Assembly: GCF_027257975.1 (NCBI RefSeq)
Contig: NZ_JANZKX010000003.1
Coordinates: 620,001 to 684,000 of the forward strand
DNA from: Pelomonas sp. BJYL3
GTDB taxonomy: Bacteria > Pseudomonadota > Gammaproteobacteria > Burkholderiales > Burkholderiaceae_C
Length of the DNA: 64,000 bases
Direction of reading: 5' to 3'
The notes under the pieces were generated by a model, which did no database searches, was not told the origin of the DNA, and saw only the letters and a list, made by a program, of their open reading frames with translations. Shown one piece after another: positions 74 to 27,670 of this stretch. The position numbers and the translations under genes were made by a program. How positions within the stretch are numbered: position 1 is the stretch's first letter; each line of letters begins with the position of its first letter.

Positions 74-1459
74 TCAGGCCTTCAGTGCCAGGATCTGGTT
101 TGCAGCCCGCTCGCCGCTCAGGTAGGCGCCGTGCGTGGTTTGCGGATAGTCCGGGTGCGTGTGCTCACCGGCGAAGAACACGCGGTTCGATACCGCGGTG
201 GTGAGCGTCTTGACCATGGCCGGCGTGGAACCCGTGGCAAAGAAGGAGTAGGACCCATAGCTGAAGGGGTCCTGGTCCCAGCGGGTGACCTGGTAGTCGG
301 TCGGGTTGGGAATGCCATCACCGAACATGTCACGCAGCACATCCATGGCCTTGTCGACGATCTGCCAGTCGGCCAGCGCTTCTTGCTGCTGACCGTAGAA
401 GCCGGCTGTGAAACCAATGAGCACGGCCTTGCCGTTGAGCGCCGGAGAGGGATTGAACCAATCGTGGAACTTGCCCAGCTCGGCAGACGTCGGCACATAG
501 GCGAGCCAGTCCTTCGCCGGCCAGAACACTGACGGGAAGCGCAGCACCACCTTGTTCAGCACCCCGGTGCCCATGCCCAGCTTCGAGATGGCCGTTGAGT
601 AGGCGCTGGGCAGCGCCGGGCTGAAGCTGATCTTGTTCTTCTTCAATACGCCCAGCGGCACCGTGACGATGACCCGGTCGGCCGTGTAGGTGCCCACGTT
701 GGTGGTGACGGTCACGCCCGTGCCGGTGTAGGCGATCTTGCTCACGATCTGGTTCAGGCGGATGTCCTGCCCCTGGGCGAGCGCATTCACGATGGGCTCG
801 TAGCCGGTGTCGGGCAGATAGACCTCGGGGCCGGGGAATTCCTTGGCGTTATCCCAGTACCAGGCGGACAGTTCTGCGGTGTCGCCCGCATACTCGTAGC
901 CACCGATCTCCCGCATCCAATAGTCCGTCAGGCGCTTGTCATAGGCGTCCATCGACGCATAGCCGATCTTGTTCTTGGTGTACTGCATCAGTGACATCTC
1001 CGAATTGGAGTCGCCACTGCTTTCCATGGCCTTTCGGACCTTGTCGCCCATCGTGTTGAAGTAGGTCAGGTCCGCGCCGGTCAGCGGCCCGTCACCCGCC
1101 TCGTACGCGGTGGTCTTGTCATAGGAGTCGGCCGCGAGGCGCAGGCCCAGCGCCTTGGCGATCGGTGTAATGGGGTTGCCCTTGCCGGACTCATGGATCC
1201 AGGTCGCCCCCAGATCCATCGGCAGATCAGCCCACTTGTGGCTGGTGTAGCAGCGCCCGCCGAAGCGGTTACGGCCCTCCAGGATCGTCACCAGATGGCC
1301 TTTCGCCTTGAGGATCTGTCCCGCACGAAGCCCGGCGAGCCCGGCCCCGATGATCAACACGTTTTGCCGGCCGATCGCGTGGGCGACCTGAGGGACGGTG
1401 GCGGAGGCAGCGGCCAAGGCACCTGTGCCGGCCATCTGCAAGAGTTCACGACGCTTCAT
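74..1459 (-). CDS. Exported flavin monoamine oxidase (amine oxidase A)
   Basis: FAD-dependent amine oxidase of 461 aa, of the family that oxidises primary or secondary amines to aldehydes with release of H2O2 and amine. The N-terminus (MKRRELLQMAG, then an Ala-rich stretch to AHA near residue 28) looks like a twin-arginine leader, so a folded FAD enzyme in the periplasm is expected. The dinucleotide motif GAGLAG is at 38-43, with the ribose-binding Glu at 61, GGR at 67-69 and the family segment MDLGATWIH at 81-89. The C-terminal FAD motif FAGEHT starts near 429. An AGGAGA ribosome site sits about 8 nt before the ATG. It is the first of three related oxidases in the window. The substrate is unknown; the context suggests polyamines or similar amines. 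Confidence 0.88.
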   Translation of the reverse strand: MKRRELLQMAGTGALAAASATVPQVAHAIGRQNVLIIGAGLAGLRAGQILKAKGHLVTILEGRNRFGGRCYTSHKWADLPMDLGATWIHESGKGNPITPIAKALGLRLAADSYDKTTAYEAGDGPLTGADLTYFNTMGDKVRKAMESSGDSNSEMSLMQYTKNKIGYASMDAYDKRLTDYWMREIGGYEYAGDTAELSAWYWDNAKEFPGPEVYLPDTGYEPIVNALAQGQDIRLNQIVSKIAYTGTGVTVTTNVGTYTADRVIVTVPLGVLKKNKISFSPALPSAYSTAISKLGMGTGVLNKVVLRFPSVFWPAKDWLAYVPTSAELGKFHDWFNPSPALNGKAVLIGFTAGFYGQQQEALADWQIVDKAMDVLRDMFGDGIPNPTDYQVTRWDQDPFSYGSYSFFATGSTPAMVKTLTTAVSNRVFFAGEHTHPDYPQTTHGAYLSGERAANQILALKA

Positions 1460-1886
1460 CTCGACAATCTCCTGGAAGAGTGGAGGGCCCTCCGTGGAGG
1501 CGCCCGAACGGGGACAAGCTCATCAACCGAAACTGCGGATTCCCTCAACACCTGTCGCAATCACCGCGAACCAGGCGTCAGAGCGCCAGGCCAGCCTTGC
1601 TTCTTCTTGTCTTGGATCTGTGCGCCCGAGCCCCTGCGATGGCCAGGTGGCGGCGTGACGAGTAGCGTCACCCGGCGGACCGGAACCCCGGGCGCTCTCC
1701 CGCGATACGACAGGAGAACGACAGGCACACGGTAGCGAAGGGAGACCGGCGCTGTATGCCGGCCGATTGGAGGACAGGCGATTCTTCAAACGCTGCTAGG
1801 CCGGCGCCGATCAGCTTGGGGATGGCACCGACGCTCCCGCGTCGGCGATGGATGCGAGGCCGGCGCCGCGCGTGCAGCGCCGCCTG
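1460..1886. other. Intergenic region between amine oxidase A and alr (427 nt)
   Basis: No convincing gene. It must hold the promoter of the minus-strand amine oxidase gene and the end of the beta-alanine operon. A 7-bp stem (CCGACGC, loop TCCC, GCGTCGG) at 1828-1845 may mark the 3' end of the operon but has no T-tract. A short GC-rich word, GGCCGGCGCCG, occurs twice, near 1799 and 1858. Confidence 0.5.
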
Positions 1887-2954
1887 TCAGTCCAGGTACT
1901 GCAAGGGCACACGCTTGACGTTGCACAGCAACTCGTACGCAATCGTGCCCGCACGGGAGGCCACCTCGTTCACGGGAATCGTGGGCCCCCACAGCTCCAC
2001 GGGGCTGCCGATGCCCGCGTGCGGCAGGGGCGTGAGGTCGACGGTCAACATGTCCATGGACACGCGTCCGATCAGCCGCGTCCGTTGCCCGTCGACCGCC
2101 ACCGGCGTGCCCGTGGCCGCCGCGCGGGGGTAGCCGTCCGCGTAGCCCAGCGCCACCAGGCCCACGCGCGTGGGCTCTGTCGCGCGGAAGGCACCGCCGT
2201 AGCCGAGCGTCTCCCCGGGCTGCAGCAAGCGCTGAGAAAACACGTGGCTGCGAAGCGTCATGACCGGCGCCAGCGGCGAGGCACTGCTGCCGAGCGGATC
2301 GGCACCATACAAGGCAATACCGGGCCGACCCCAGTCCCGCCGGGCCGCTGGCCAGGCGAGGATGCCAGCGGAGTTGCACAGGCTGCGGGGCCCCGCCAGG
2401 CCTTGTGTGGCCGCCTCGAATACTGCCAGCTGCTCGCGTGTGGCGGGGCAGTCGGGCTCGTCCGCACGAGCAAAGTGAGTCATCAAGGTGATCGAATGCG
2501 CCTGCCCTGTTGCCTGCAATCGGCGATACGCCGCGGCGGCGGCGTCCGGCGCAAAGCCCGCGCGGTGCATGCCACTGTCGATCTTCAGCCAGAAGGAGGC
2601 GGGCACGCGAGGCAGTGGCGTTCGCTCGATCATGCGCAGTTGGTCCTCATGGTGGACCACCAATGCAATGCCGCCGGCCACGGCTTCCACGAGCTCCCGC
2701 GCATCGAAAGCGCCTTCCAGCACCAACAGCGGGCCTTCGATGCCCGCGGCACGCAGTTGGCGCGCCTCCTCCAGAAAGGCCACGCCGAAGCCGTCGCTGG
2801 TGCCGCCCAGTGCCCGGGCACAAGCCACCGCGCCATGCCCGTAGGCATTGGACTTGAGCACCGCGATCTGCCTTCCGCCATGCATGGAGCGCATCACCCG
2901 TGCGTTATGGCGCAAGGCACGCAGATCAATGAGCGCAGCACTGGGCCGCGTCAT
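1887..2954 (-). CDS. alr: Alanine racemase, catabolic type
   Basis: Interconverts L- and D-alanine using PLP in the cytoplasm. The 355-aa length is typical. The Schiff-base lysine is K34 in [11 protein letters not shown], and the catalytic tyrosine is in GYADGYPR (about residue 271). The ATG overlaps the stop of dadA by 4 nt, so the two are translationally coupled, as in the dadAX operons of other proteobacteria. Being last in an operon with a beta-alanine:pyruvate-type aminotransferase suggests a catabolic DadX role: it turns the L-alanine made by transamination into D-alanine for DadA. A cell-wall role is possible if this is the only racemase in the genome. Confidence 0.93.
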
Positions 2955-4252
2955 GACGTGGCCCCGACGGAGACCTCGGCGCTGCGGCCGCGCGGCTGGT
3001 CGAGGTAGCGGGCCATTGACAAGCCCTCCGTGCTGATCGCCGGGCGCCGGCCATTGATCTGGTCAGCCAGCAGCTGACCCGAGCCGCAGGCCATGGTCCA
3101 GCCGAGGGTGCCATGACCGGTATTCAGGAACAGCTCGGGATAGCGCGTCGCCCCGACGATGGGCGTGCCGTCGGGGGTCATCGGGCGCAGTCCCGTCCAG
3201 AAGGTGGCACGCGGCACATCACCGCCTGGGAAGAGGTCTTGGACCACCTTCTCCAGCGTCTCGCGTCGGCGTGGGTTCAGCCGCAGGTCAAAGCCGGCGA
3301 TCTCCGCCATCCCGCCGACCCGGATGCGCTGGTCAAAGCGAGTCAGCGCGATCTTGTAGGTCTCGTCGAGGACGGTGGACACCGGCGCGCGCCGTTCATC
3401 GGTCAGCGGCACCGTGAGCGAATAGCCTTTGAGCGGATAGACCGGGATATTCAAGCCCAGCGGCAGCAGCAGATCACGCGTGTAGCTGCCGAAGGCCTGG
3501 ACGTACCGGTCGGCGCGCAACAGCTCGCCGCTCGCGAGGCGGACACCACGTACGCGGCCGCCCTCCACCTCGATCGCCACGACACGGCTGTCAAAGCGCC
3601 CCTCCACCCCCAAGCCAGGCAATGTGCGGGCCAGCGCCCGTGTGAACAGATGGCAGTCGCCGGTCTCGTCGTTGGGCAGCCGCAAGCCACCCGCAAGCGG
3701 GCTCTGGACATGAGCCAGCGCCGGCTCGACCCTCGACAGGCCGCTGCGGTCCAGCAGCTCGAACGGCACGCCGCATTCGCGCAATACGGCGATGTCGCGC
3801 TGCGCGGCGTCCAGTTGTGCCTGCGAACGGAACAGCTGGAGCGTCCCGCCGGTGCGGTGCTCGTAGCCAAGGTACATCTCCTGGCGCAAGGCACGAAGGC
3901 AGTCCCGGCTGTACTCCGCCACCCGCATCATGCGCTCCTTGTTGACGGCATAGCGCTCGGACGTGCAGTTGCGCAGCATGGCGGCCATCCACTGCAGTTG
4001 GAAAAGCGTGCCGTCCGGGCGGATCGCCAGGGGCGCATGCCTTGAGAACAGCCATTTCATCGCCTTCAGCGGGATGCCAGGCGCCGCCCAGGGGGTGGAG
4101 TACCCCGGCGACACCTGCCCCGCGTTGGCGAAGCTGGTTTCCATTCCCGGGGTCGGCTGCCGATCCACCAGCGTGACCTCGGCCCCGCCTCGTGCCAGGT
4201 AGTACGCCGTGGTGGTGCCGACGACGCCGCCTCCGAGCACTAGAACTTTCAT
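2951..4252 (-). CDS. dadA: D-amino acid dehydrogenase, small subunit
   Basis: Membrane-associated FAD enzyme that oxidises D-alanine to pyruvate and ammonia and passes electrons to the quinone pool. The 433-aa length matches the family. The Rossmann motif GGGVVG is at 7-12. The DadA signature [20 protein letters not shown] lies at 40-59, and a C-terminal FAD segment contains [16 protein letters not shown]. It overlaps alr by 4 nt downstream and sits 15 nt after the semialdehyde dehydrogenase gene. With alr it can regenerate the pyruvate used as amino acceptor by the aminotransferase at the head of the operon. Confidence 0.94.
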
Positions 4253-4267
4253 GGCGTTGACCCCGGC

Positions 4268-5773
4268 TCAGCGACTGGACGGGAAGCTGAAGACCGCACC
4301 TTCGCGCACACCGGCGCTCGGCCAGCGCTGCGTGATGGCCTTGCGCCGCGTGTAGAAGCGCACGGCGTCGGGACCGTAGGCATGCAGGTCGCCGAAGAGT
4401 GAGCGCTTCCAGCCGCCGAAGGAGTGGTACGCCACGGGCACCGGCAGCGGCACGTTGACACCCACCATGCCCACCTCGATGTGGTCCGTGAAGTGGCGCG
4501 CGGCCTCGCCGTCCCGCGTGAAGATGCAGGTGCCATTGCCGTACTCATGAGCATCGATCAGTGCCATGGCCTGCTCCAGGGAGTCCACGCGCACCACGCC
4601 GAGCACCGGCCCGAAAATCTCCTCCTGGTAGATCCGCATGCCCGGCTTGACGTGGTCAAAGAGGCAGGGGCCGAGGAAGTAGCCCTCCGCATGGCCAGGC
4701 ACCTCGATGCCTCGGCCGTCGACAACGAGCGTGGCACCCTCCGCCACGCCTTGGTCGACATAGCTTCGCACCTTGGCCAGATGGGCCTGCGTCACGAGGG
4801 GGCCCATGTCGTTCTCCGGGTGGCGACCGGGGCCGACCTTCATCTTTGCAATCTCCGCGACCAGCCCCCGGACGATGGCATCCCCCGTCACCGGACCGAC
4901 CGCGACGATCAGCGGCACGGCCATGCAGCGCTCGCCGCAAGAGCCATACGCCGCCCCCATCAACGCGCTGATGGTGTTGGGCAGATCGGCATCCGGCATC
5001 ACCACCGCATGGTTCTTCGCGCCACCCAGCGCCTGCACGCGCTTGCCGTGGGCCGTCCCGGTTGCATAGATGGCTTCGGCGACCGGCGTCGACCCCACAA
5101 AGCTGACCGCCTTGACGCGGGGGTCCGTCAGAAGCACATCCACGGCTTCCTTGTCGCCCTGGACGACATTCAGCACGCCGGGCGGCAGGCCCGCTTCAAG
5201 GGCCAGTTCAGCGACGAGCAAGGCGCTAGAGGGCGCGCGTTCGGAGGGCTTGAGCACAAAGGTGTTGCCGCAGGCGACGGCCATGGGCCACATCCACAGC
5301 GGCACCATGACAGGGAAGTTGAATGGCGTGATGCCAGCAGCCACACCAATTGCCTGATGCTCACTCCAGGCGTCGATGCCGGGGCCGACCTGCCGGCTGT
5401 GCTCACCCTTCAGCAGCTCGGGCGCATAGCTCGCGTACTCCACGTTCTCGATACCGCGCTGCAGTTCGCCCATGCTGTCGGCCAGGACCTTGCCGTGCTC
5501 CAGCGTGATCAGCTCGCAAATGCGGGCGGCGTTGTCCTCCAGCAGCTGCTTCAGGCGGGACATGACACGGGCGCGCTTGAGCGGAGGCGTGGCCTTCCAG
5601 GCAGGCAGCGCCCGCTGCGCAGCGGCGATGGCGGCCTCCACGGTCGGCGCATCCGCGAGCGCCACCCTGGCGACAGGATGACCCGTGGAGGGATCGAATA
5701 CATCGGCGTGGCGCTGGCCGCCCGCCTGCAGGCGGCCATCGATGAGGTGCTGGACAGTTCGTGCTTCAGTCAT
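4268..5773 (-). CDS. mmsA: CoA-acylating (methyl)malonate-semialdehyde dehydrogenase
   Basis: Converts malonate semialdehyde (or methylmalonate semialdehyde) with CoA and NAD+ to acetyl-CoA (or propionyl-CoA) and CO2. The 501-aa length is normal. Subfamily marks are FNFPVMVPLWMWP in the NAD-binding half, GGAKNHAVVMPDAD where other aldehyde dehydrogenases have ELGGK (so the general-base Glu is absent, as expected for this CoA-dependent group), and the nucleophile Cys in SCGERCMA. The frame stays open upstream, but MTEARTVQHLIDG fits the family N-terminus. The gene lies 20 nt after the aminotransferase and 15 nt before dadA. In this setting the substrate is most likely malonate semialdehyde from beta-alanine, as for BauC of Pseudomonas; a valine-pathway role is the alternative. 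Confidence 0.92.
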   Translation of the reverse strand: MTEARTVQHLIDGRLQAGGQRHADVFDPSTGHPVARVALADAPTVEAAIAAAQRALPAWKATPPLKRARVMSRLKQLLEDNAARICELITLEHGKVLADSMGELQRGIENVEYASYAPELLKGEHSRQVGPGIDAWSEHQAIGVAAGITPFNFPVMVPLWMWPMAVACGNTFVLKPSERAPSSALLVAELALEAGLPPGVLNVVQGDKEAVDVLLTDPRVKAVSFVGSTPVAEAIYATGTAHGKRVQALGGAKNHAVVMPDADLPNTISALMGAAYGSCGERCMAVPLIVAVGPVTGDAIVRGLVAEIAKMKVGPGRHPENDMGPLVTQAHLAKVRSYVDQGVAEGATLVVDGRGIEVPGHAEGYFLGPCLFDHVKPGMRIYQEEIFGPVLGVVRVDSLEQAMALIDAHEYGNGTCIFTRDGEAARHFTDHIEVGMVGVNVPLPVPVAYHSFGGWKRSLFGDLHAYGPDAVRFYTRRKAITQRWPSAGVREGAVFSFPSSR

Positions 5774-5793
5774 GGTGGGGGACTCGTGGGGGA

Positions 5794-7143
5794 TCAGCGG
5801 GTTTCGTGCAGGGTCTGGCCGAGGGCGTCCACCAGGCGGTCGATTTCCTCGGGGGTGCTGGTGAAGGGGGGGGCAAGCTGCAGGGTGTCGCCGCCATAGC
5901 GCACGTAGAAGCCTTTCTCGTACATCGCCATCGCCACCTCGTAGGGCCGGCGTGCTGGCTCGCCGGGCGCACTGTCGACGGTGATGCCGGCCGCCAGACC
6001 GAAATTGCGGACGTCCGCCACATGCCGGACACCCTTCAGACCATGCACGGCCGATTCGAGGCGGGGGGACAGTTCGCGAACGCGGGCCAGGGCGTCGTCC
6101 TTCTCGAGCAGGTCGAGCGTCGCCAGTGCTGCGGCGCAGGCCACCGGGTGCGCCGAGTAGGTGTAGCCATGCGGGAACTCGAGGAGGTAGTCCGGCCCGC
6201 CTGCAGCCATGAAGGTGTCGTAGATCTCCTGCCGGGCGATGACGGCGCCCAGCGGCTGCGCGCCGTTGGTGACTTGCTTGGCGACGTTGATGATGTCCGG
6301 CGTCACCCCGAAGGCCTCGGCCCCCGTCCAATGTCCGGTGCGACCGAAGCCGGTGATGACCTCGTCAAAGATCAGCAGGATGTTGTGTGCCGTGCAGAGC
6401 TCCCGCAGGCGCTGCAGATAGCCCACCGGTGGCACCACCACACCGGCCGATCCAGAGAAGGGTTCGACGATGACGGCAGCGATGTTGGAGGCATCGTGCA
6501 GCTGGATCAGGTTCAGGAGGTCGTCAGCCAGATGCGCGCCTTCGGTCGGCATGCCCCGGAAGAAGCTGCCTGCGGGCGGCTGGGTGTGGGGGAGGTGGTC
6601 GGCCTCGACACCTTGCCCGTAGAGCTTGCGGTTGGCGGCAATGCCCCCGACCGAGATGCCACCAAAGTTGACACCGTGATAGCCCTTGCTTCGCCCGATG
6701 AGCCGCGTCTTGCCCGGCTGCCCCTTGAGTCGCCAGTAGGCGCGGGCCATCTTCAGCGAGGTATCCGCTGACTCAGAGCCCGATCCGGTGAAGAACACGC
6801 GATTGAGCCCGGCGGGCATGCGCTCAACGATGCGATTGGCCAGCTCAAACGACAGGGGATGCGCGAACTGAAACGCGGGCGAGTAGTCCAGGGTGCCCAC
6901 CTGCTGAGCGACGGCCTCGACGATCTCCCGGCGGGCATGCCCCAGGCCCGTGCACCACAGCCCCGACAGGCCGTCAAAGATGTCCCGGCCATCATCCGAC
7001 TTGTAGTAGTTGCCCTGCGCGGACGTGATGAGTCGGGCGTTCGCCTTGAACTCGCGATTGCCGGTGAAAGCCATCCAATGCGTGGCGAGGTGGGCGGGGT
7101 CCCGCTGAGGGCGGGGTGGGGTCCAAAGGACGTCGGTGCTCAT
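5794..7143 (-). CDS. bauA: Omega-amino acid (beta-alanine):pyruvate aminotransferase
   Basis: Class III PLP aminotransferase that moves the amino group of beta-alanine or other omega-amines to pyruvate, giving malonate semialdehyde and L-alanine. Started at MSTDVLWTPP it is 449 aa, the length I recall for the Pseudomonas putida enzyme. The PLP-phosphate region GSGSESADT is at 120-128, the Asp-Glu pair of LLIFDEVITGFGRTG at 260-261, and the PLP lysine is K289 in NVAKQVTNGAQPLGAV. The frame extends 20 codons further upstream, but a GGAG site precedes the chosen ATG. It heads the aminotransferase-mmsA-dadA-alr operon, opposite a LysR gene, the arrangement of bauA and bauR in Pseudomonas. Some homologues prefer putrescine or other diamines. 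Confidence 0.9.
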   Translation of the reverse strand: MSTDVLWTPPRPQRDPAHLATHWMAFTGNREFKANARLITSAQGNYYKSDDGRDIFDGLSGLWCTGLGHARREIVEAVAQQVGTLDYSPAFQFAHPLSFELANRIVERMPAGLNRVFFTGSGSESADTSLKMARAYWRLKGQPGKTRLIGRSKGYHGVNFGGISVGGIAANRKLYGQGVEADHLPHTQPPAGSFFRGMPTEGAHLADDLLNLIQLHDASNIAAVIVEPFSGSAGVVVPPVGYLQRLRELCTAHNILLIFDEVITGFGRTGHWTGAEAFGVTPDIINVAKQVTNGAQPLGAVIARQEIYDTFMAAGGPDYLLEFPHGYTYSAHPVACAAALATLDLLEKDDALARVRELSPRLESAVHGLKGVRHVADVRNFGLAAGITVDSAPGEPARRPYEVAMAMYEKGFYVRYGGDTLQLAPPFTSTPEEIDRLVDALGQTLHETR

Positions 7144-7211
7144 GGCGGGATCTCCAGGGGGTCGGTCAAAGGGTTGACAGGCAACGATGGGCGTGATCCT
7201 CATGGAACTTG

Positions 7212-7255: not shown

Positions 7256-8182
7256 ATGCAACCTAAGTCCAAAGCCCTGCTAGGGCGCGTCAGCGACATC
7301 GATCTGCGGCTGCTGCGCGTCTTCAAGGCGGTGGCGGACTGCGGCGGCATGGCCGCGGCCGAGCTGGAGCTGAACATCGCGATGTCGACCATCAGCCGGC
7401 ACATCAAGGACCTGGAGGAACGCCTCGGCCTCGTGCTATGCCGCCGGGGCCGAGCAGGGTTCGCACTGAGCCCGGAGGGCGAGCGCGTCTATGCCGCCGC
7501 GGAGCACCTGCTGTCGGCCACCGAGTCCTTCCGCAGCAGCCTGCACGACATTCATCGGGGATTGGGGGGCGAACTGCACGTGGCACTGTTCGAGAAGACG
7601 GCCACCAATCCGGCGGCTCGCATCCCGCAGGCCATCGCACGCTTCCGGGACGTGGCGCCGGAGGTCGAGCTGCACCTGCATGTCGGCTCCATCACGATGA
7701 TCGAGCAAGGCGTCATGGGGGGACAGTTCCTGCTGGGCATCATTCCCGAGCACCGGCGCTCCGAGAGCCTGGCCTACGACGAGCTCTTCGACGAGGTCAT
7801 GAAGCTATACGCCGCTCCCGGTCACCCCTGGTTTGCGCCGGGGCGTCAAACGCCCGGCTGGAAGGACCTGGGCACCCAGGCGCTGGCCGGCCTGGGCTAT
7901 CACTCGCCGAACATGATGCTGGCGCATGAGCACCGCCTCACTCGCGAGGCCACGGCCTCTGACCAGGAGGGCGTCGCCACCCTGGTGCTGTCGGGAGGCT
8001 TCGTCGGCTTCCTGCCGGACCACTATGCCGACACCTTCGTGCAAAGAGGCCAGATGAGGGCCGTGGCCCCGCGAACGCTGAACTACAGCTGTCGCTTCTC
8101 GTGTGTGCATCGCCGCGCCCCCGCCCTCTCCCGGGCCGCACAGATCTTCCGCGACGTCCTCATCGAGGCGCACCAGCGCTAA
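7256..8182 (+). CDS. LysR-family regulator, likely of the beta-alanine operon (BauR-like)
   Basis: Transcription factor of 308 aa. A LysR winged helix-turn-helix occupies residues 16-75 (DIDLRLLRVFKAVAD, then MSTISRHIKDLEERLG), followed by a periplasmic-binding-like effector domain. It is transcribed away from the aminotransferase operon with a 112-bp shared promoter region, which is the usual LysR self-and-target arrangement and matches bauR/bauABCD of Pseudomonas. The effector would be expected to be beta-alanine or a related intermediate. The start ATG at 7256 has no clear ribosome site. Confidence 0.85.
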   Translation: MQPKSKALLGRVSDIDLRLLRVFKAVADCGGMAAAELELNIAMSTISRHIKDLEERLGLVLCRRGRAGFALSPEGERVYAAAEHLLSATESFRSSLHDIHRGLGGELHVALFEKTATNPAARIPQAIARFRDVAPEVELHLHVGSITMIEQGVMGGQFLLGIIPEHRRSESLAYDELFDEVMKLYAAPGHPWFAPGRQTPGWKDLGTQALAGLGYHSPNMMLAHEHRLTREATASDQEGVATLVLSGGFVGFLPDHYADTFVQRGQMRAVAPRTLNYSCRFSCVHRRAPALSRAAQIFRDVLIEAHQR

Positions 8183-8585
8183 GGTCCAGTCCAGCGCTCA
8201 GCGACTCCCCGACTGCCCCGCTCGGCGCAGCAGATCGGTCACTTCAACCCGCACAGCGGGCCTGTCTGTCATCCCGCCAGCGGACAGACACGCGCAAGCC
8301 CCGCATCTACCGTATCGGCACCGCCTCCCGCGCCCCCTTGCGCTGGGCCGACCTCCCGCGACGCCTGTGAACCGGCACCGACGCCCCCTGCCTATGGACT
8401 CCCGCGCCCATCCTCTCCTGCCTCGCCGCCGCGAGGTGGCCGCACGCGTCTGGCACCTGCCGTGGCGCTGAGTGGCCGGCAAAGGTTGAGGACTGCCCTC
8501 AACTCGGGCTTCGCGGCCTGACACCGGTCTCTCGGTCGATCCTGACGCAGCCATCTGGCGCCCCCTTTTGAACCTTTGCACATTC
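8183..8585. other. Intergenic region upstream of the FAD oxidase (403 nt)
   Basis: No gene could be supported on either strand. The region is GC-rich without an obvious hairpin terminator. It presumably contains the promoter of the oxidase-cupin-aldehyde dehydrogenase group that starts at 8586. Confidence 0.4.
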
Positions 8586-10383: not shown

Positions 10384-10395
10384 ACGGAGCGCTTC

Positions 10396-11877: not shown

Positions 11878-12263
11878 AGCTCCTGTCCCATCCCCTGTAG
11901 CCGCAGCGGCACCTGCCGCAGCTGCCATTGACGCCATCGACATGACGCTCGCCCTCTCGGACCACCGCCGCGGCCTGCGCTCGCGTGCGACGCCGCCAGT
12001 GCCACAGCGTGTGCGAGCCCGCGTGTCGATGCCATCACATACGCGGCAGGCGGCTCGCCCGGGGCTGCGGGTCGGCGTCGACCTGGACTTCTGGTCCCTC
12101 TACCACTGCCGGCATGCGCGCCCTCCGCATGCCGCGCTCGGCGTGTAGGCCGGCACCCAAGCCGCCGGCTCTCTGCCCGGTCTCGTACCCGAGCCCGGGC
12201 TGCCATCCCGTCCGCGGGCGTGCAGCGCGCTGGTGCGCGCTCCGCCGCATTGGAGAGATCCCC
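11878..12263. other. Intergenic region upstream of puuA (386 nt)
   Basis: GC-rich with no supportable gene. A ribosome site (GGAGAG at 12252) immediately precedes puuA. The length suggests that puuA-puuB has its own promoter here rather than reading through from the aldehyde dehydrogenase gene. Confidence 0.4.
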
Positions 12264-18067: not shown

Positions 18068-18120
18068 GGGATCTCCGTTAGGGTGCAAGGAATTGCCCCG
18101 GACTAATCGTCTCGGGACGC

Positions 18121-18957: not shown

Positions 18958-19874
18958 GACTTCAGCTCCTGCGCCTGCATCTGGTACTTGTTGAAGACCG
19001 CCAGGGGCACGACGATGAGCAGTACCAGCACCACGGCCACGGACGAGGCCATGGGCCAGTCGTTGTTGGTGAAGAACTCATCCCAGATCACCCGGGCGAT
19101 CATCAGCGTCTGCGGTCCGCCCAGCAGCTCGGGGATGACGTACTCGCCGATGCTCGGGATGAACACGAGCATCGAGCCCGCGACGATGCCGGCACGTGAT
19201 AGCGGCACGGTCACCTTCCAGAACGTCAGCCACGGCGTGGCCCCGAGGTCGGCAGCCGCCTCGAGCAATCGCAAGTCCAACTTCGCCAGGTTCGAGTAGA
19301 GCGGCAGGATCATGAAGGGCAGGTAGGTGTAAGTCATGCCCACCACCAGCGAGAACGGCGTGTGCAGATAGACCCCCGGCGCACTGATCAGCCCCAGCGC
19401 CAGCAGCAGCGTGTCGACATGGAGCGAGGTGAGCACGCTGGCCAGCCAGCCGCGCTCATCAAGCAGCCCCTTCCAGGCGTACACGCGCAAGAGGAACGAG
19501 GTCCAGAACGGCAGCATCACCATCATCAGCAGCGCGGGCTGCAGCGTCGGCCGCGAGCGCGCCATGAAGTAGGAGAAGGGATAGCCGATCAGGAGGCAGC
19601 ACACCGTCGTGATCGCGGCGTACTTCAGGCTCGAGACATAGGCCATGAAGTACCAGCCATCCGTGGCGATGAAGGCGTAGTTGGCATACTTCGCCACCAG
19701 CCGGATGGCGCCGTCGGACACCGTGACGATGTCATGGACGGTCACGAGGCCCATCTCGGAGAACGAGTACTTCAGGACGATCAGGAACGGGGCGAAGAAG
19801 AAGACCAGCAACCAGGCATAGGGGATGCCAATCACGGCCGTGCGGCCGCGCGGAAGAAAGCGTTTCATGGTCAT
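18954..19874 (-). CDS. potH: Polyamine ABC transporter permease
   Basis: Inner-membrane permease of 306 aa. It starts with a hydrophobic helix (YAWLLVFFFAPFLIVLKYSF) and carries the coupling loop LEAAADLGATPWLTFWKVT near residue 220. It overlaps potG at its start and potI at its end, by 4 nt each. It forms the heterodimeric channel with PotI in a PotFGHI-type importer; the substrate is probably putrescine, by homology. Confidence 0.92.
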   Translation of the reverse strand: MTMKRFLPRGRTAVIGIPYAWLLVFFFAPFLIVLKYSFSEMGLVTVHDIVTVSDGAIRLVAKYANYAFIATDGWYFMAYVSSLKYAAITTVCCLLIGYPFSYFMARSRPTLQPALLMMVMLPFWTSFLLRVYAWKGLLDERGWLASVLTSLHVDTLLLALGLISAPGVYLHTPFSLVVGMTYTYLPFMILPLYSNLAKLDLRLLEAAADLGATPWLTFWKVTVPLSRAGIVAGSMLVFIPSIGEYVIPELLGGPQTLMIARVIWDEFFTNNDWPMASSVAVVLVLLIVVPLAVFNKYQMQAQELKS

Positions 19875-20962
19875 TGGGTCAGCACAACCTGGGTCGTCGT
19901 CGACCAGTTCGCCCAGACGGCGTCACCCTGGCTGAACTGCTCGGCATAGCGTTCGTGATTGGCCTGACTGACGGCGATCACTTGGCCACTGCCGAGCTTG
20001 ATGCGGTAGAGGGTGACGCTGCCAAAGTAGGACATCGACTCCACGCGGCCATAGGCATAGTTGAAGTCATCCACCGGGGCCTGAGCCGAGAGCTGGATCT
20101 TCTCGGGACGCACCGCCACCCAGACGGCCATGCCCTGCGTGCCCGTGATGCCGTGCCCGACATAGTGGCGGCAGTCCGCGCAGTCGATGATCACGTGATC
20201 CGCCTCGTCAACAGCCACCGTGCCCTGCATGAGGTTCACATTGCCGATGAAGTCCGCCACGAAGCGGCTGGAGGGGGTCTCGTAGATTTCCTCCGGTGCA
20301 CCGACTTGCAGCAGGCGCCCCTCGCTCATCACCGCGATGCGCGACGCCAGCGTCATGGCTTCCTCCTGATCATGCGTGACCATGACGCAGGTGACGCCGA
20401 CCTGCCGGATGATGTTGGCCAGCTCGATCTGTGTCTGCTCGCGCAGCTTCTTGTCGAGCGCCCCGAGCGGCTCGTCGAGCAGCAGCAACTGCGGCTGCTT
20501 GGCCAGGCTGCGTGCCAAGGCCACCCGCTGCTGCTGGCCGCCGGAGAGCTGGTGCGGCTTGCGCTTTGCGAACTTTCCCAGCTGGACCAGACGCAGCATG
20601 GCATCCACTCGCTCGGCGACCTGGTCCCGTGGCAAGCCATCGCGTCGCAGCCCGAAGGCAATGTTGTCCCACACGGTCAGGTGGGGAAACAAAGCGTACG
20701 ACTGGAACATCATGTTCAGCGGCCGCTGGTAGGGCGGCATGCCACTCAGTTCCACGCCGTTGAGCGTGATGCTGCCGGCGCTGAGCGTCTCGAAGCCGGC
20801 CAGCATGCGCAGCAGCGTCGTCTTGCCGCATCCCGAAGAGCCCAGCAGGGCGAAGATCTCGCCCTTCGCGATGTCCAGCGAAACGTTGTCCACGGCCGTG
20901 TACGGGCCGAACTTCTTCGTGACGTCCTTGATGCGAAGGAAGCCCGCGTTCTCATGCGCCAT
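19871..20962 (-). CDS. potG: Polyamine ABC transporter ATP-binding protein
   Basis: ATPase subunit of 363 aa. Walker A GSSGCGKT is at 41-48, the ABC signature LSGGQQQ at 139-145 and Walker B LLLLDEP at 159-165, with a switch His in [10 protein letters not shown]. The C-terminal third is a TOBE-type regulatory domain. It starts 12 nt after potF and overlaps potH by 4 nt. It energises import by the PotH/PotI channel. Confidence 0.94.
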
Positions 20963-20974
20963 GACCCCGGCTCC

Positions 20975-22090
20975 TCACAGACCGGTCTTGAACACCGAAT
21001 AGACGCGGTTCTGCTGTCGCCGGTTCTCGTTGCTCAAGGTGCCGGCGGTGCTCTTCATCCGGGCCAGGTTCTCTTCCGACAAGAACACGGTCGGGTTGTT
21101 CGCCACGTCAGGAACGACGAACTTCTTGGATACCGCGGTGGTGGGATTGGCGTAGAAGACCTTGTTCGTCAGCGACGCGCTGATCTCAGGACGAAGGATG
21201 AAGTTGATCCACTTGAGCGCATTCTCGGGATGCGGCGCATCCGCGGGAATCGCCATGGTGTCGAACCACAGAGGCCCGCCGGTCTTGGGGATCAGCGCCT
21301 CGATCTTCTGGCCCGTCTTGCCGTCGATCGCACGCTGCCGCGCGATGTTGATGTCGCCGGACCAGCCGACCGACACGCACAAGGAGCCGCTCGCCAGGTC
21401 GTTGATGTAGCCCGAGGAGCTGAACAGCGTCACGTAGGGACGGATCGACTTCAGCAGGGCAGTCGCCGCCGCGTAGTCAGCCGGCGTCTTGTTCGCGCCG
21501 TCCCGGCCCAGGTACTGCAGCGCCACGACGACCACCTCGTCGGCGGAGTCGAGGAAGGACACGCCGCAGGACTTCAGCTTGCTGATGTACTCCGGCTTCA
21601 TGACGAGATCCCACACGTTCTCAGGGAGCGGTCCTCCCAGCGCAGCCTTCACCTTGTCGACGTTGATGCCGACCGTCGTGTAGCCCCACAACCAGGTGAC
21701 CAGGAACTTGTTGCCAGGATCCACCTTGGAGAGCCGCTCATTGATGCTCGGGTCGATGTTCTTGAGGTTCGGGATCTTCGACTTGTCCAGTTCCTGCAGC
21801 AGCCCGCCAAGGATCTGCAGGCCGGCCCAGTTCGATCCGGGTACCACCACGTCATAGCCCGTCCGGCCAGCCACGAGCTTGGCATGCAGGATCTCGTTGT
21901 TGTCGAAGACGTCGTAGCGGACCTTGATGCCCGTCTCCTTCTCGAACTTCTGGATGGTCTCCTCGGAGATGTAGTCCGACCAGTTGTAGACGTTCAGGAC
22001 CTTTTCTTCTTCCGCGTGTGCAGCGCCTCCGGCGGCGAAGAGCAGAGCGCCAAGAAGCGTCAGGGCACAGCGGGCTGGCGAGAGTTTCAT
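20975..22090 (-). CDS. potF: Periplasmic putrescine/polyamine-binding protein
   Basis: Substrate-binding protein of 371 aa with a clear signal peptide (MKLSPARCALTLLGALLFAA, cleaved near AHA). The mature start has VLNVYNWSDYISEETI, and the ligand pocket shows the family residues in YNWSDY and GSNWAGLQ. It heads the potFGHI run. In the family these residues bind putrescine or spermidine amines; which is preferred here cannot be read from the sequence. The promoter must lie in the 499-nt region upstream, which carries short tandem repeats. Confidence 0.93.
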   Translation of the reverse strand: MKLSPARCALTLLGALLFAAGGAAHAEEEKVLNVYNWSDYISEETIQKFEKETGIKVRYDVFDNNEILHAKLVAGRTGYDVVVPGSNWAGLQILGGLLQELDKSKIPNLKNIDPSINERLSKVDPGNKFLVTWLWGYTTVGINVDKVKAALGGPLPENVWDLVMKPEYISKLKSCGVSFLDSADEVVVVALQYLGRDGANKTPADYAAATALLKSIRPYVTLFSSSGYINDLASGSLCVSVGWSGDINIARQRAIDGKTGQKIEALIPKTGGPLWFDTMAIPADAPHPENALKWINFILRPEISASLTNKVFYANPTTAVSKKFVVPDVANNPTVFLSEENLARMKSTAGTLSNENRRQQNRVYSVFKTGL

Positions 22091-22589: not shown

Positions 22590-23678
22590 TCAGTCGGTCG
22601 AGCGGGCCGCGTCTGGAGATGCAATCGGCCAGCGGATCGAGAAGCTCGTTCCACCGGCTTCGTTCGCCGTGCAGCGGGCGTCGCCGCCGTGGGCCATCGC
22701 GATGGCCTTCACGACAGACAGTCCGAGCCCGTTGCCGCCAGCGATCTTGGCGCTGACACTGTCGGCCTGCCAAAACGCCTGGAAGACCTGCTGCATGGCG
22801 GCGTCGGGCAGGCCGGGGCCAGCGTCGTTCACTCGCAGGACGTTGTCTTCCCCCTCGCGGGCGAAGCAAACCCAGAGCTCACCGGCCGTGGCGTACTTCA
22901 GAGCGTTGTCCAGCAAGGCCACCAGCGCCTGGCGGATGCGCAGCGGGTCGCAGCGCACTGGCATCGCCTCCACCAGGATTCGCAGACGCAGCCCTGCCTT
23001 TTGCAGCATGGGCTCGTAGATATCGCCCACCGTCCGGATCTCTTGCTCGAGGTTGACACTGCGAAGGTCCAGTCGCAGCTGATGGGACTCAAACAGACTC
23101 AGCAGGCGCAAGTCCTCGATCAGGCGGGACAGCCCGTCGACCTGCGTCAACAGCTTGCGCAGCGCCTCTTCCGTCGGAGGAAAGACGCCATCGGCAAAGC
23201 CCAACAGGCGCCCGCGCAGGATGGTCACCGGCGTGCGAAGCTCGTGGGCGATGGCCGCATTCCACTGAGCTCGTTCATTCACAGCGCGCTGCAGCTTTTC
23301 TGCCATCTGGTTGAAGTCCTGAACCAGCGCAGACGCCTCGCCCAGCGGCGCCTCAGTGGCCTGAGCCCGGGCGTCAAGGTCGCCTGCCGCCACACGGCGA
23401 ATGCCGGTGGCCACGCTGTTCAACGGCTCCACCAGGCGACGGGCGATCCGCGTGGAAAAGTAGAGCGACACCAGCACAGCCACCAGCCCCAGCACCAGGA
23501 AGAGCAGGAAGTCTGGCAGGGTCGGCAGGTCCGATTCGCAGTCGAACAGCGTGGGCCAGTACTTGCCCGCCAGGTAGTAGATGGCGTAGCAGAGAATGAA
23601 GATCACCGCATGGACCAGCAGGACCGTGCTGGCCACCGCGCTGGCGATCTTTCGCCCCAGGCCGTAGCTCAGGTTCAT
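22590..23678 (-). CDS. Sensor histidine kinase
   Basis: Membrane kinase of 362 aa. Two transmembrane segments (about 12-37 and 57-75) flank a periplasmic stretch of only about 20 residues. A HAMP linker (STRIARRLVEPLNSVATGIR) follows, then the dimerisation domain with phospho-accepting H145 in AAIAHELRTP. The ATPase domain has DNALKYA, NDAGPGLP and GGNGLGLSVVKAIA. The ATG overlaps the response-regulator stop by 4 nt. The tiny periplasmic part suggests that the signal is sensed in the membrane, by the cytoplasmic parts or by a partner protein. The position beside the polyamine genes makes their control a reasonable but unproven role. Confidence 0.9.
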   Translation of the reverse strand: MNLSYGLGRKIASAVASTVLLVHAVIFILCYAIYYLAGKYWPTLFDCESDLPTLPDFLLFLVLGLVAVLVSLYFSTRIARRLVEPLNSVATGIRRVAAGDLDARAQATEAPLGEASALVQDFNQMAEKLQRAVNERAQWNAAIAHELRTPVTILRGRLLGFADGVFPPTEEALRKLLTQVDGLSRLIEDLRLLSLFESHQLRLDLRSVNLEQEIRTVGDIYEPMLQKAGLRLRILVEAMPVRCDPLRIRQALVALLDNALKYATAGELWVCFAREGEDNVLRVNDAGPGLPDAAMQQVFQAFWQADSVSAKIAGGNGLGLSVVKAIAMAHGGDARCTANEAGGTSFSIRWPIASPDAARSTD

Positions 23679-24388
23679 CGACGCTCCAGACAGTAGCCAA
23701 CGCCTCGGACGCCGGCGGGCATGCCCTCCAGCCCCAGCTGCTCGATCTTCTTGCGCAGCTTGCTCATGTGGCTGTCGATCGTGCGCTCCTGCGTGTCACC
23801 CTCGGGCAGGCAGGCATCCATGAGTTCGGCACGGCTGAAGACACGCGTCGGCACCTGCGCCAGCACCTGGAGCAGCCGGAACTCTGTCACCGTGAGCACC
23901 AGCGGGCGGCGCTCCCCCTGCACATGCAGCCAAGCGCTGTGGCTCTGACGGTCCAGCTCCAAGGGCCCAGCCTTCAGCACGGCGGGGGACAAGTCCACGG
24001 ACGCCACCAGCGTTCGACGGAGCACCGCCCGGACGCGGGCCACGACCTCCGAAGGGTTGAAGGGCTTGACGATGTAGTCGTCCGCCCCGATGCGCAGCGC
24101 GGAGATCTTGTCCACATCGCCCTCCAAAGCGGTCAGCATGATGACGGGCGTCCCGCCCCGCTGCCGCAAGGCAGAGAGGACCTCCCACCCGTCCATGACC
24201 GGCATCTGCACGTCCAGCAGCACCAGGTCCGGATTGAGCGCCAAGTGGAGCTGCAGCGCCTCCCTGCCATCGCGCGCCCAGGCCGTGCGCAGCCCCTCCC
24301 GCTGAAGGTAGGCGCCCACGATGTCGGCGATCTCGGACTCGTCCTCCACGACAAGGACCAGCGCCGAACCCGAACTCTTGGCATGCAT
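23675..24388 (-). CDS. OmpR/PhoB-family response regulator
   Basis: DNA-binding response regulator of 237 aa. The receiver has acidic residues E15/D16, phospho-acceptor D59 in LVLLDVQMP, and K108 in DDYIVKPF. A C-terminal winged helix carries LTVTEFRLLQVLAQ and the recognition-helix region ERTIDSHMSKLRKKIEQLG. The frame is open for 58 more codons upstream, but MHAKSSGSALVLVVEDE gives the normal N-terminus. It precedes its kinase with a 4-nt overlap and is divergent from the lipoprotein amine oxidase gene. Confidence 0.92.
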   Translation of the reverse strand: MHAKSSGSALVLVVEDESEIADIVGAYLQREGLRTAWARDGREALQLHLALNPDLVLLDVQMPVMDGWEVLSALRQRGGTPVIMLTALEGDVDKISALRIGADDYIVKPFNPSEVVARVRAVLRRTLVASVDLSPAVLKAGPLELDRQSHSAWLHVQGERRPLVLTVTEFRLLQVLAQVPTRVFSRAELMDACLPEGDTQERTIDSHMSKLRKKIEQLGLEGMPAGVRGVGYCLERR

Positions 24389-24605: not shown

Positions 24606-26060
24606 ATGCAACGACGACACTTCTTCACTTTGACGGGAACCCTGGCCTTGGCAGGCTGCGGCGGCGGCTCCGACGGAGCGGATGCCCCCATGACTCCGTC
24701 GCCGACTCCATCGCCGGCACCGGCGCCCAGCCCCACGCCGAGCCCGCCGCCGACGCCCACACCGGGCCCTGCGCCGAGCGCGCAAGCGGTCTTGGTGATC
24801 GGTGCTGGCATGGCTGGCCTTGCTGCCGCACGCCGCCTGCGCGATGCGGGTCGAGAGGTGGTCGTCCTGGAGGCTCGGCAGCGCCTAGGCGGGCGGCTGT
24901 TCACATCCACCCAATGGGCGGATGCCCCGCTGGATGTGGGCGCCACGTGGATCCACGGGGATGGCCCAGGCAACCCGATCTCCGACTTGGCACGTCGGGC
25001 CGGGGCTCGCCTGGCCCAGACCAGCTTCGGCCGGGACCAGGCCTTCGAGGCCGACGGTCGCCGGCTTGACGCTGCGGGTGCAGCGCAACTCGACAGCCTG
25101 CGCGCCAGCATTCGCAAGGCCATCAGCGACTACCAACGCTCGGAGAGTGACACCACCTTGCGCGACGCCGTCTATCGCGGGCTCGGCTACAACGAGCGCA
25201 GCGCGCTGGAGCAGCAGCGCATCGACTACCTGATCAACACGACCTATGAGCACGAGTACAGCGGTGACGCCAGCCAGCTGTCGGCTCTCTGGTTTGACAG
25301 CGACAGCCGCTACGAAGGTGTCGAGAGCTTGTTTCTCGATGGCTACCGCGTGCTGATCGACTTCCTGGCCAAGGACCTCGACGTTCGACTCGGACAAGTT
25401 GTGCAGAGCGTCCGCCACAACGAGCAGGGCGTGACCGTCCAGACCAGCCAGGGCAGCTTCTCCGGCGCGGCGGTGGTGGTGACGCTGCCGCTGGGTGTGC
25501 TGCAGTCCGGGCAGGTGAGCTTCGATCCCCCACTGCCAGCACGCAAAGCCCAAGCCATCGACAAGCTGGGCATGGGCGTCCTGAACAAGTGCTTCCTGCG
25601 CTTCCCCACGGCCTTCTGGGACACCAAGACGGACTGGCTCAACTACATCCCGAGTGCTGAGCGCAATGGCCAGTGGGCCGAGTGGGTGAGCCTTGCACGG
25701 CCGACCGGCCAACCGATCCTGCTCGGTTTCAACGCCGCCGCCGTCGGGCAGGCCATGGAGGCGTGGTCAGACCAGGACATCGTCGCCAGTGCCATGCGCA
25801 CGCTGCGCACGATGTTCGGCGCGGGCATTCCCGATCCGGTCAGCTGGCAAATCTCGCGCTGGGCCTCAGACCCCTTCGCACGTGGCGCGTACTCCTTCAA
25901 CAAGCTCGGCTCGGCGCCCGGCATGCGCGAGGATCTCGCGGCGGCTGTGGGTCGCTCCTTGTACTTCGCAGGCGAGGCAACGGATCCACGCTACTTCCAG
26001 TCGGTGCATGGAGCCTATCTGTCCGGGCAACGCGCGGCAGCAGAGGTACTCGCCCGCTAG
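24606..26060 (+). CDS. Lipoprotein flavin monoamine oxidase with proline-rich tether (amine oxidase B)
   Basis: Flavin amine oxidase of 484 aa with unusual targeting. It begins MQRRHFFTLTGTLALAGC: a twin-arginine motif RRHFF plus a lipobox ending at C18, so a Tat-exported lipoprotein is predicted. Residues about 29-60 form a Pro/Thr/Ser/Ala-rich tether made of PTPSP-like units. The enzyme domain follows with GAGMAG, GGRLFTST, DVGATWIHGDGPGNP and, at the C-terminus, FAGEATDPRYFQSVHGAYLS. It would be anchored to a membrane with the catalytic domain held off the surface. It stands next to a paralogue (26207-27670) and opposite the two-component genes. Substrate unknown. Confidence 0.88.
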   Translation: MQRRHFFTLTGTLALAGCGGGSDGADAPMTPSPTPSPAPAPSPTPSPPPTPTPGPAPSAQAVLVIGAGMAGLAAARRLRDAGREVVVLEARQRLGGRLFTSTQWADAPLDVGATWIHGDGPGNPISDLARRAGARLAQTSFGRDQAFEADGRRLDAAGAAQLDSLRASIRKAISDYQRSESDTTLRDAVYRGLGYNERSALEQQRIDYLINTTYEHEYSGDASQLSALWFDSDSRYEGVESLFLDGYRVLIDFLAKDLDVRLGQVVQSVRHNEQGVTVQTSQGSFSGAAVVVTLPLGVLQSGQVSFDPPLPARKAQAIDKLGMGVLNKCFLRFPTAFWDTKTDWLNYIPSAERNGQWAEWVSLARPTGQPILLGFNAAAVGQAMEAWSDQDIVASAMRTLRTMFGAGIPDPVSWQISRWASDPFARGAYSFNKLGSAPGMREDLAAAVGRSLYFAGEATDPRYFQSVHGAYLSGQRAAAEVLAR

Positions 26061-26206
26061 CGCACCCCAGCCCAATTTCCGGGACACGGCCTGGCCATAG
26101 CCTTGACGGCGCCTGCGCTCATTCGTCTACTGACCGAGCCCGTGTCCAGGTCGGGGCCGCTCCCGCTCGGGGCTTGAGGCCCTCGATTCGAATGAAAGGT
26201 TGAGCA

Positions 26207-27670
26207 ATGAAGCGTCGGACCGTCATGAAAACAGCAGGAATGGGATTGGGAGCCTTCATGGGACTCGGCACTCAGCGAGCGTTGGCCTTGACCGGTCGGG
26301 CGAGCGACCAGGCCGGCATGACGCCCAGCCAAGGGCCACGCAAGGCGATCGTGATCGGCGCCGGCATCTCGGGCCTCGCCGCGGCCCAACGCCTTCGAAC
26401 GGCGGGCCTGGAGGTGCTCGTCTTGGAAGCCCGAGACCGCATCGGTGGACGGCTGCACACCAGCACGGCATGGCGTGGCCCGGCCATGGACTTAGGGGCC
26501 TCGTGGATTCACGGCGCCGGCCCGGGCAACCCCGTTGCCGTGCTGGCCAAGCAGCTCGGCGCGCGTCTGACCTCGACAACGTACGACAACGCGGAGGCTT
26601 ATGACGGCGAAGGGGGCGAGTTGGCCGACCACCACAACCGCCTGCTCGAAGCCATCCAACGCCAAGTCGCCACGGCCATTGCCGAGCGGGATCGCCGAAA
26701 AGAGCAGTCTCTCAAAGCGCTGGTCTATGACGAGTTGGACTACCAGGATCGACCGGTGCTGGAGCAGCGGATGATCGACTTCGCGCTCAACGGCACCTAC
26801 GAGCACGAGTACGGCGCATCAGCGGACCAACTGTCCGCGAAGTGGTTCGACAGTGGCGAGGCATTCGAGGGGCCCGAGCACCTGTTTCTCGATGGCTACC
26901 AATTGTTGAGCACCCATCTCGCCGCCGGCCTCAACATCAAGCTCAAACATGAGGTGAGTGCAGTCACCTACCAAGGCCCGAGCGGCGTGACCGTGCAGAC
27001 CAACCAGGGTGAGTTTTCCGCACACTACGTCGTCGTCACCCTGCCGCTTGGCGTTTTGAAATCGGGGCGCGTCAACTTCACCCCGGCTCTGCCCACCAGC
27101 AAGCGTGCCGCGATCGAGGGGCTAGGCGTTGGTGTGCTCAACAAGTGCTGTCTGCTGTTCCCTCAGACGTTCTGGAACAGCCGCCTTGACTGGCTGAACC
27201 AGCTGCCCAGACAGGGCAAGGCTGGCCAGTGGGCGGAATGGGTGAGCTTCGCCCGCCCCACGGGCCGCCCGGTGCTGATGGGTTTCAACGCAGCAGACTT
27301 CGGACGCAAGATCGAGAGCTGGGACGACACGGCCATCGTTCAAAGCGCGATGGGCGCCCTGCGTACCATGTTTGGCCAAGGCATTCCCGCACCTGTGGAC
27401 GCCCTCGTCACCCGCTGGGCCGCTGACCCCTATGCCCGTGGCGCCTACTCATGCCACGTGGTCGGTTCCACGCCGCAACAGCGGGACGACCTGGCCCAGA
27501 GCATCAACGGCCGCCTCTTCTTCGCGGGAGAGGCGACGGAGCGGCAGTACTATCAGACGGTCCACGGTGCGTACCTGTCCGGCCTCAGGGCGGCCAATGA
27601 AGTGCTGCGGCAGAACACAGGCAGCACGGCCGCGGCACCGTGGCGCCCCATGGCTTCGCCGCTGGGCTGA
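26207..27670 (+). CDS. Exported flavin monoamine oxidase (amine oxidase C)
   Basis: Flavin amine oxidase of 487 aa, a tandem paralogue of the preceding gene. The leader MKRRTVMKTAGMGLGAFMGL ends near ALA and resembles a twin-arginine signal, but it lacks a lipobox cysteine, so the protein should be soluble in the periplasm. Motifs are VIGAGISG, GGRLHTSTAW, DLGASWIHGAGPGNP and FAGEATERQYYQTVHGAYLS. It is more like oxidase B than oxidase A in the residues that can be compared by eye. A small membrane-protein gene follows 23 nt downstream and is probably co-transcribed. Confidence 0.88.
   Translation: MKRRTVMKTAGMGLGAFMGLGTQRALALTGRASDQAGMTPSQGPRKAIVIGAGISGLAAAQRLRTAGLEVLVLEARDRIGGRLHTSTAWRGPAMDLGASWIHGAGPGNPVAVLAKQLGARLTSTTYDNAEAYDGEGGELADHHNRLLEAIQRQVATAIAERDRRKEQSLKALVYDELDYQDRPVLEQRMIDFALNGTYEHEYGASADQLSAKWFDSGEAFEGPEHLFLDGYQLLSTHLAAGLNIKLKHEVSAVTYQGPSGVTVQTNQGEFSAHYVVVTLPLGVLKSGRVNFTPALPTSKRAAIEGLGVGVLNKCCLLFPQTFWNSRLDWLNQLPRQGKAGQWAEWVSFARPTGRPVLMGFNAADFGRKIESWDDTAIVQSAMGALRTMFGQGIPAPVDALVTRWAADPYARGAYSCHVVGSTPQQRDDLAQSINGRLFFAGEATERQYYQTVHGAYLSGLRAANEVLRQNTGSTAAAPWRPMASPLG

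Follow-up and report, generated by a model that had tools for sequence, protein, structure and literature searches.

Three flavin amine oxidoreductases with export leaders

The window analysed here, a 64,000-nucleotide stretch of Pelomonas sp. BJYL3 (contig NZ_JANZKX010000003.1, positions 620,001 to 684,000), encodes three flavin amine oxidoreductases (FAO1, FAO2, and FAO3), each of which begins with a leader of the twin-arginine translocation (Tat) type:

74..1459, minus strand: FAO1, Tat-leader flavin amine oxidoreductase of 461 amino acids (aa), no lipobox (PF01593; Shine-Dalgarno-like AGGAG upstream)
24606..26060, plus strand: FAO2, Tat lipoprotein-type flavin amine oxidoreductase of 484 aa (translation, PF01593)
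24606..24659, plus strand: Tat leader of FAO2 with lipobox LAG-Cys18, unchanged in sister species G002
24660..24782, plus strand: Pro-rich linker of FAO2 (residues 19-59; 41 residues, 16 of them Pro), kept in G002
26207..27670, plus strand: FAO3, Tat-leader flavin amine oxidoreductase of 487 aa, Ala-X-Ala type (translation, PF01593)

All three proteins match PF01593 at 255-262 bits against a cut-off of 19.8 (E 3e-75 or better), and the GAG of the GxGxxG FAD motif is invariant in 18 aligned rows. The original prediction had proposed these three open reading frames (ORFs), each with a twin-arginine leader, and the sequence bears it out, with the amendment that FAO1 is read from the minus strand, which the prediction had omitted; stops interrupt a plus-strand reading of 74-1459. 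Read from the translations, the leaders are MKRRELLQMAGTGALAAASATVPQVAHA (FAO1), MQRRHFFTLTGTLALAGC (FAO2), and MKRRTVMKTAGMGLGAFMGLGTQRALA (FAO3). Each joins an N-terminal RR motif to a hydrophobic segment, and the genome encodes TatC, so that all three have the features of Tat substrates. In FAO2 the hydrophobic segment is followed by the lipobox Cys at residue 18, exactly where it had been predicted, which marks the protein as a putative Tat lipoprotein. As to the proposed location outside the cytoplasm, the sequences support export and, for FAO2, lipid anchoring; a periplasm-facing enzyme would be a simpler reading than one on the outer surface.

The sister species G002 keeps all three genes and the gene order between them, with no amino-acid change in the leaders of FAO2 (residues 1-18) and FAO1 (1-30) and one in that of FAO3 (1-43). 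Pairwise identity is 54% for FAO2/FAO3, 43% for FAO2/FAO1, and 40% for FAO3/FAO1. A recent tandem duplication giving rise to FAO2 and FAO3 found no support—the tree places FAO3 with L121 and L103 (100/100), joined by L102 (96/92), and leaves FAO2 outside. The genome gives 12 matches to PF01593, nine of them over at least 250 model positions; by eye, seven of these nine carry an RR leader (FAO1-3 and L004-L007) and two do not (L008, L157). One of them, L007 (L021:11187-12680 on G000:C22), lies directly left of the window, about 1.4 kb from FAO1, and has a possible VASC lipobox.

Leaders were surveyed across 45 rows, namely the three window genes and 42 loci of relatives that scored at least 190 bits in an FAO tblastn search; L038, which is cut off and in which no FAD motif was found, and all lower-scoring loci (L052-L054 included) were left out. 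One scan of genome contigs had given 80 of at least 146 loci, and searches of genome collections added more. The calls follow a hand-made rule: a stricter first version gave a leader in 30 of the 45 rows and a lipobox in 12, and was loosened since clear leaders were missed, giving a Tat-like leader in 34/45 and a lipobox in 13/45. By eye, L103, L119, and L126 (leader) and L047 (lipobox) add to these calls and were so labelled by hand on the tree. Lipobox rows span records labelled Cyanobacteria, Actinomycetota, Chloroflexota, Myxococcota, Bacteroidota, and Burkholderiales, a relative on a Haloarcula plasmid has the leader TRRAALAGGAAALTGLAGC, and leaderless relatives occur in Curtobacterium and Microbacterium. 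For a protein of the Synechocystis sp. PCC 6803 plasmid pSYSM (SGL_RS00435; 46% identity to FAO2 over 406 aligned columns), the annotated start seems too short: an in-frame ATG 39 bp upstream (L146:3818-3856) gives MIRRRSFFKLSQLMFVSYLLSTSC, and the N-terminus so extended, RRR...STSC, resembles a Tat-lipoprotein leader. On the leader counts across the 45 rows, together with Haloarcula and Synechocystis, predicted export is the rule in the examined part of this branch, and putative lipid anchoring recurs. The lipobox failed as a clade marker, with 12 changes on the tree against a shuffled mean of 12.0; 315 of 500 shuffles gave a count at least that low.

The Pro-rich tether of FAO2, originally given as about 30 residues, is present and somewhat longer, at 41. 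In G002 it keeps 15 Pro, with 6/41 residues changed in the linker versus 4/425 in the domain. The expectation that lipobox and tether would be conserved together did not hold: the 12 other lipobox rows have linkers with 1-3 Pro versus 16 in FAO2, so that among the homologues examined a long tether was seen only in FAO2 of this genus (own genome and G002). A Pro-rich stretch also precedes the domain in L023 (Chloroflexi), for which no lipobox was called. Within the genome, 19 matches to a lipobox-CGGG pattern were found, four of which (FAO2 included) have at least 11 Pro within the 45 residues that follow the Cys; the reversed pattern gave one match, and the 19 seem to include chance frames such as L132 and L145. 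Other ORFs sharing the lipobox-CGGG-Pro style are L128, L130, and L144. We therefore set aside the tether as a functional hallmark, given that it lacks conservation in the homologues examined and that other lipoproteins of the genome have linkers of this style too.

Putative active-site residues and the surrounding gene cluster

The best PDB matches are LSD2, LSD1, maize PAO, SMO, and PAOX. A 43-aa segment of FAO3 around WIHG matches only PAOX and SMO in PDB, with weak E-values (0.049 and 0.15), and a WIHG..NP motif is common to all three. In FAO2, W115, I116, H117, K328, and Y429 are invariant in the 18 rows, and position 466 is Ser where the rows mostly have Thr. The FAO3 counterpart of Lys328 aligns in the PDB comparison with a Lys of LSD2 that we take to be the catalytic one. 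Two traits of SMO/PAOX-type polyamine oxidases are thus found in the window proteins—a catalytic-type Lys, on the invariance of K328 and the alignment to LSD2 rather than to SMO, and a Trp-x-His, on the weak-E alignment to PAOX and SMO and the invariance in 18 rows. The Synechocystis relative SGL_RS00435 is presumably Slr5093, a biochemically characterised polyamine oxidase. Active-site residues of SMO include Trp80, His82, Lys367, Tyr482, and Thr528 (PMC3517346); on our own reading, made independently of any alignment to SMO, K328, Y429, and position 466 would correspond to the last three. The SMO pocket also comprises Gln200, Glu216, Ser218, Glu224, Trp427, and Ser527, and on the same unaligned reading Ser527 is a Gln in the window proteins. 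Polyamines, most likely spermidine/spermine-type amines, are the substrates that these residues suggest for FAO1-3.

The genes between FAO1 and FAO2, and one directly after FAO3, are as follows:

1887..2954, minus strand: alanine racemase, alr/dadX-like (TIGR00492, 334 bits, cut-off 168)
2951..4252, minus strand: D-amino acid dehydrogenase, dadA (NF001933, 692 bits, cut-off 383)
4268..5764, minus strand: CoA-acylating methylmalonate/malonate semialdehyde dehydrogenase, mmsA, start chosen by us (TIGR01722, 649 bits, cut-off 448.5)
5794..7203, minus strand: omega-aminotransferase, aptA (NF052567, 688 bits, cut-off 500)
7256..8182, plus strand: LysR-type regulator by eye (no NCBIfam family at E<=1e-30)
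8568..9986, plus strand: PuuB-like FAD oxidoreductase 1 (under curated cut-offs)
10396..11877, plus strand: aldehyde dehydrogenase (ALDH), betaine/aminobutyraldehyde type (under cut-off)
12252..13628, plus strand: PuuA-like glutamine-synthetase-family ligase (under cut-off)
13625..14983, plus strand: PuuB-like FAD oxidoreductase 2 (under cut-offs)
15123..16613, minus strand: PuuC-like aldehyde dehydrogenase (665 bits, cut-off 850)
16697..18088, minus strand: putative outer-membrane beta-barrel, DUF3138/BBP2 (family match)
18121..22090, minus strand: potIHGF-like polyamine ABC importer (only the PotA-type ATPase over cut-off, TIGR01187)
22590..24388, minus strand: histidine kinase and response regulator, AdeS/AdeR-like (under cut-offs; divergent from FAO2)
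27694..28038, plus strand: 114-aa protein with three likely transmembrane segments by eye (23 bp downstream of FAO3)

The minus-strand genes aptA, mmsA, dadA, and alr are arranged in this order: 29 bp separate the first two and 15 bp the next two, while dadA and alr overlap by 4 bp (given our choice of mmsA start). All four score over their NCBIfam cut-offs. Jointly, their predicted products could turn beta-alanine and pyruvate into acetyl-CoA while recycling alanine. The histidine kinase/response regulator pair is a candidate regulator. In scans for promoters and terminators, nothing stood out clearly from the shuffles. GC content is 0.63-0.69 across positions 1-30000 and no tRNA was found within the window, so that neither gives an island signal.

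Two of three genomes of the genus have both FAO (E<=1e-60) and PuuA (E<=1e-100) genes, and the third yielded neither. A PotF-like gene is close by at 4 of 46 other FAO loci (L024, L044, L048, L104; set L022-L054, L102-L106, and L119-L126) versus 0 of 47 low-scoring loci from the same scan (L055-L101), a contrast that is weak because many loci are short and the neighbour cut-offs were 1e-15 and 1e-12; two of the four, moreover, come from one genus with a leaderless FAO. Two loci, L024 and L104, have the FAO gene in the company of ALDH, LysR, and PotF-like genes: in L024 (Pseudomonas alcaligenes) the ALDH gene ends 35 bp ahead of the FAO, with LysR and PotF-like genes adjoining, and in L104 the FAO stands between a DAO-type gene and a PotF-like gene. 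In the Curtobacterium loci L044 and L048, leaderless FAO relatives cluster with genes resembling PotF, PotG, ALDH, AptA, and PuuB, so that a comparable set of genes accompanies a cytoplasmic enzyme there.

On balance, and with limited confidence, we lean towards FAO1-3 being extracytoplasmic polyamine-oxidase-like enzymes that feed the pot/puu and aptA-mmsA-dadA-alr genes. The coupling to a polyamine uptake operon that had been proposed draws support from the position of the genes, from synteny in one sister species, and from the four PotF-neighbour loci. Several observations weigh on the other side. For most close relatives (e.g., L102, L103, L105, L119, L120, L122-L125) no polyamine-gene neighbour was found in our search. 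The top PDB scores belong to the histone demethylases LSD2 and LSD1, not to SMO, and the Synechocystis protein has WIQG, with Gln replacing the His of WIHG, because of which that His can be no strict requirement. The puu gene names rest on scores under curated cut-offs and are therefore names by similarity, and FAO1, 427 bp after alr, may lie outside the alr operon.

We doubt, while taking it as a real possibility, that the exported FAOs instead act on other amines—monoamines, amino acids, N-methyl amines, or plant alkaloids—beside an incidental polyamine-gene neighbourhood. The position of most relatives outside polyamine clusters would fit such a reading, as would the breadth of the family and its sporadic occurrence, in 9/200 genomes of the taxonomic family (E<=1e-70), 5/399 of the order (1e-75), and 3/369 of the class (1e-85), the own genome counted each time. 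The SMO/PAOX-like motif, weak as its E-values are, the Synechocystis relative, and the repeated occurrence beside PotF-like and ALDH genes argue for polyamines.

A link between FAO3 and the 114-aa membrane protein is possible. No Pfam family matched the latter over cut-off. In G494 a homologue starts 29 bp downstream of the FAO; in G723 the distance is about 1.1 kb, and an ORF on the opposite strand intervenes. A model of the protein matches only 3/369 class genomes, the same three in which an FAO occurs at E<=1e-85, and was itself built from these three genomes. Queried with the window copy, plasmid records gave no match at 1e-3; the L119 copy matched 50 at E<=0.05, 36 of them Rhizobium. The records carrying homologues are from Rhizobium, Mesorhizobium, Phyllobacterium, Cupriavidus, and Tsukamurella, and in six loci opened around them (L151-L156; local tblastn at 1e-6) no FAO was found, which weakens the idea of an FAO-only partner. 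The Tsukamurella homologue adjoins an agmatine deiminase family gene.

Proposed route and electron acceptor

From the genes, leaders, lipobox, motifs, and gene order described above, we infer the following localisation, substrate, oxidant, and flux. FAO1-3, as FAD enzymes of a polyamine-oxidase/LSD-like branch, would acquire their FAD in the cytoplasm and leave it through Tat in folded form. FAO2 would be lipidated at Cys18 and held at the membrane facing the periplasm, and FAO1 and FAO3 would be soluble periplasmic (or membrane-near) enzymes. There they would use O2 to oxidise spermidine/spermine-type amines, and the products would be an aminoaldehyde and a shorter amine, along with H2O2. Putrescine would be taken up by PotFGHI and enter the puu route; 3-aminopropanal would be converted to beta-alanine by an ALDH, AptA would transaminate beta-alanine to malonate semialdehyde, and MmsA would yield acetyl-CoA, with the alanine formed returned to pyruvate via Alr and DadA. 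A first step of the spermine-oxidase type would thus supply each half of the cluster with a product of its own.

Bacterial FAOs such as NicA2 and Pnao, which have a Tat leader and are encoded beside a cytochrome c gene, are dehydrogenases (PMC12224317, Akram and others 2025). FAO1-3 might likewise hand electrons to cytochrome c, or to some other carrier in the membrane or periplasm, an alternative that we hold to be unlikely. It shares the export route and has its precedent in that work, and a small membrane protein directly follows FAO3. The genome, moreover, has a likely pair of the published type: at L004/L158 (G000:C23:272442-274489) the stop of a Tat-like FAO overlaps a 147-aa ORF with CAACH, a CXXCH-type motif, and a Sec-like leader by eye. 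No such neighbour was found for the window FAOs: PF00034 and PF13442 have no match at E<=0.001 within the window, the nearest cytochrome c family match on the contig lies at 583 kb, about 36 kb left of FAO1, with none to the right, and a crude scan of the window found no CXXCH ORF with a leader. Among the 41 sources of that scan (the window, L022-L054, and L102-L108), two had such an ORF, antisense to the FAO in L104 and more than 5 kb from it in L029. Of the tested Tat-leader FAOs that lack a neighbouring cytochrome c gene, most react rapidly with O2, and one, from Erythrobacter, is slow and counts against our preference (PMC12224317). By this rule, because no cytochrome c gene was found nearby, O2/H2O2 chemistry is more likely than cytochrome c for the window FAOs. 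That the leaders are non-functional and FAO1-3 cytoplasmic, as the leaderless Curtobacterium and Microbacterium relatives might suggest, is very improbable in view of the unchanged FAO1 and FAO2 leaders of the sister species and of leaders across phyla and in Haloarcula.

More broadly, and only tentatively, we suggest that a branch of polyamine oxidases in bacteria and some haloarchaea is exported, carries a lipid anchor in recurrent cases, and starts polyamine breakdown outside the cytoplasm, here feeding a beta-alanine/alanine-recycling operon together with puu/pot genes, with the three-transmembrane protein as a possible membrane partner of FAO3. If so, polyamine breakdown in some bacteria begins at the cell envelope, and H2O2 and aminoaldehydes would be released where neighbours, hosts, or the outside polyamine pool can be affected. 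The revision of the FAO superfamily into oxidases and cytochrome c dehydrogenases would then extend to the polyamine-oxidase-like branch, for which FAO1-3 are concrete enzymes to assay.

Relation to known systems

The 60 best PDB matches do not include 5ttj, which we take to be NicA2, either for FAO2 or for FAO1. The window FAOs resemble NicA2 and Pnao in being bacterial PF01593-type FAD enzymes with a Tat leader and a predicted periplasmic location, and differ from dehydrogenases of that kind in that no adjacent cytochrome c gene was found (PMC12224317). The original prediction knew of no description of such a pathway; the Tat-leader FAOs of that paper mean that predicted periplasmic FAOs have been. 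What seems little studied is the exported polyamine-oxidase-like branch with its adjoining polyamine breakdown cluster: the paper's main text lacks the words lipoprotein, lipobox, spermidine, and putrescine and has "polyamine" once, in the references, and a literature search, judged on titles and abstract openings with subscription journals mostly uncovered, gave, among the papers listed, no exported or lipid-anchored bacterial polyamine oxidase beyond its FAOs.

With animal SMO/PAOX and maize PAO the window FAOs share a catalytic-type Lys and sequence kinship to solved structures, and with SMO and PAOX also WIHG..NP; unlike them, those enzymes are eukaryotic, with established substrate and O2 use. 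The Synechocystis protein is similar to FAO2 in sequence and, on the extended reading, in its leader; unlike FAO2, it has no Pro tether and a WIQG motif, and none of the 15 features displayed around it is named as a polyamine gene. E. coli TynA, a periplasmic copper/topaquinone amine oxidase of unrelated fold, likewise oxidises an amine outside the cytoplasm, and its aldehyde is used inside the cell. Similar in its steps is the spermidine dehydrogenase route of P. aeruginosa, in which polyamine is cleaved to 3-aminopropanaldehyde, which proceeds through beta-alanine to acetyl-CoA (PMC9397018); SpdH is heme-binding, by the title of its structure paper, whereas the first enzyme here would be an exported PF01593 FAO.

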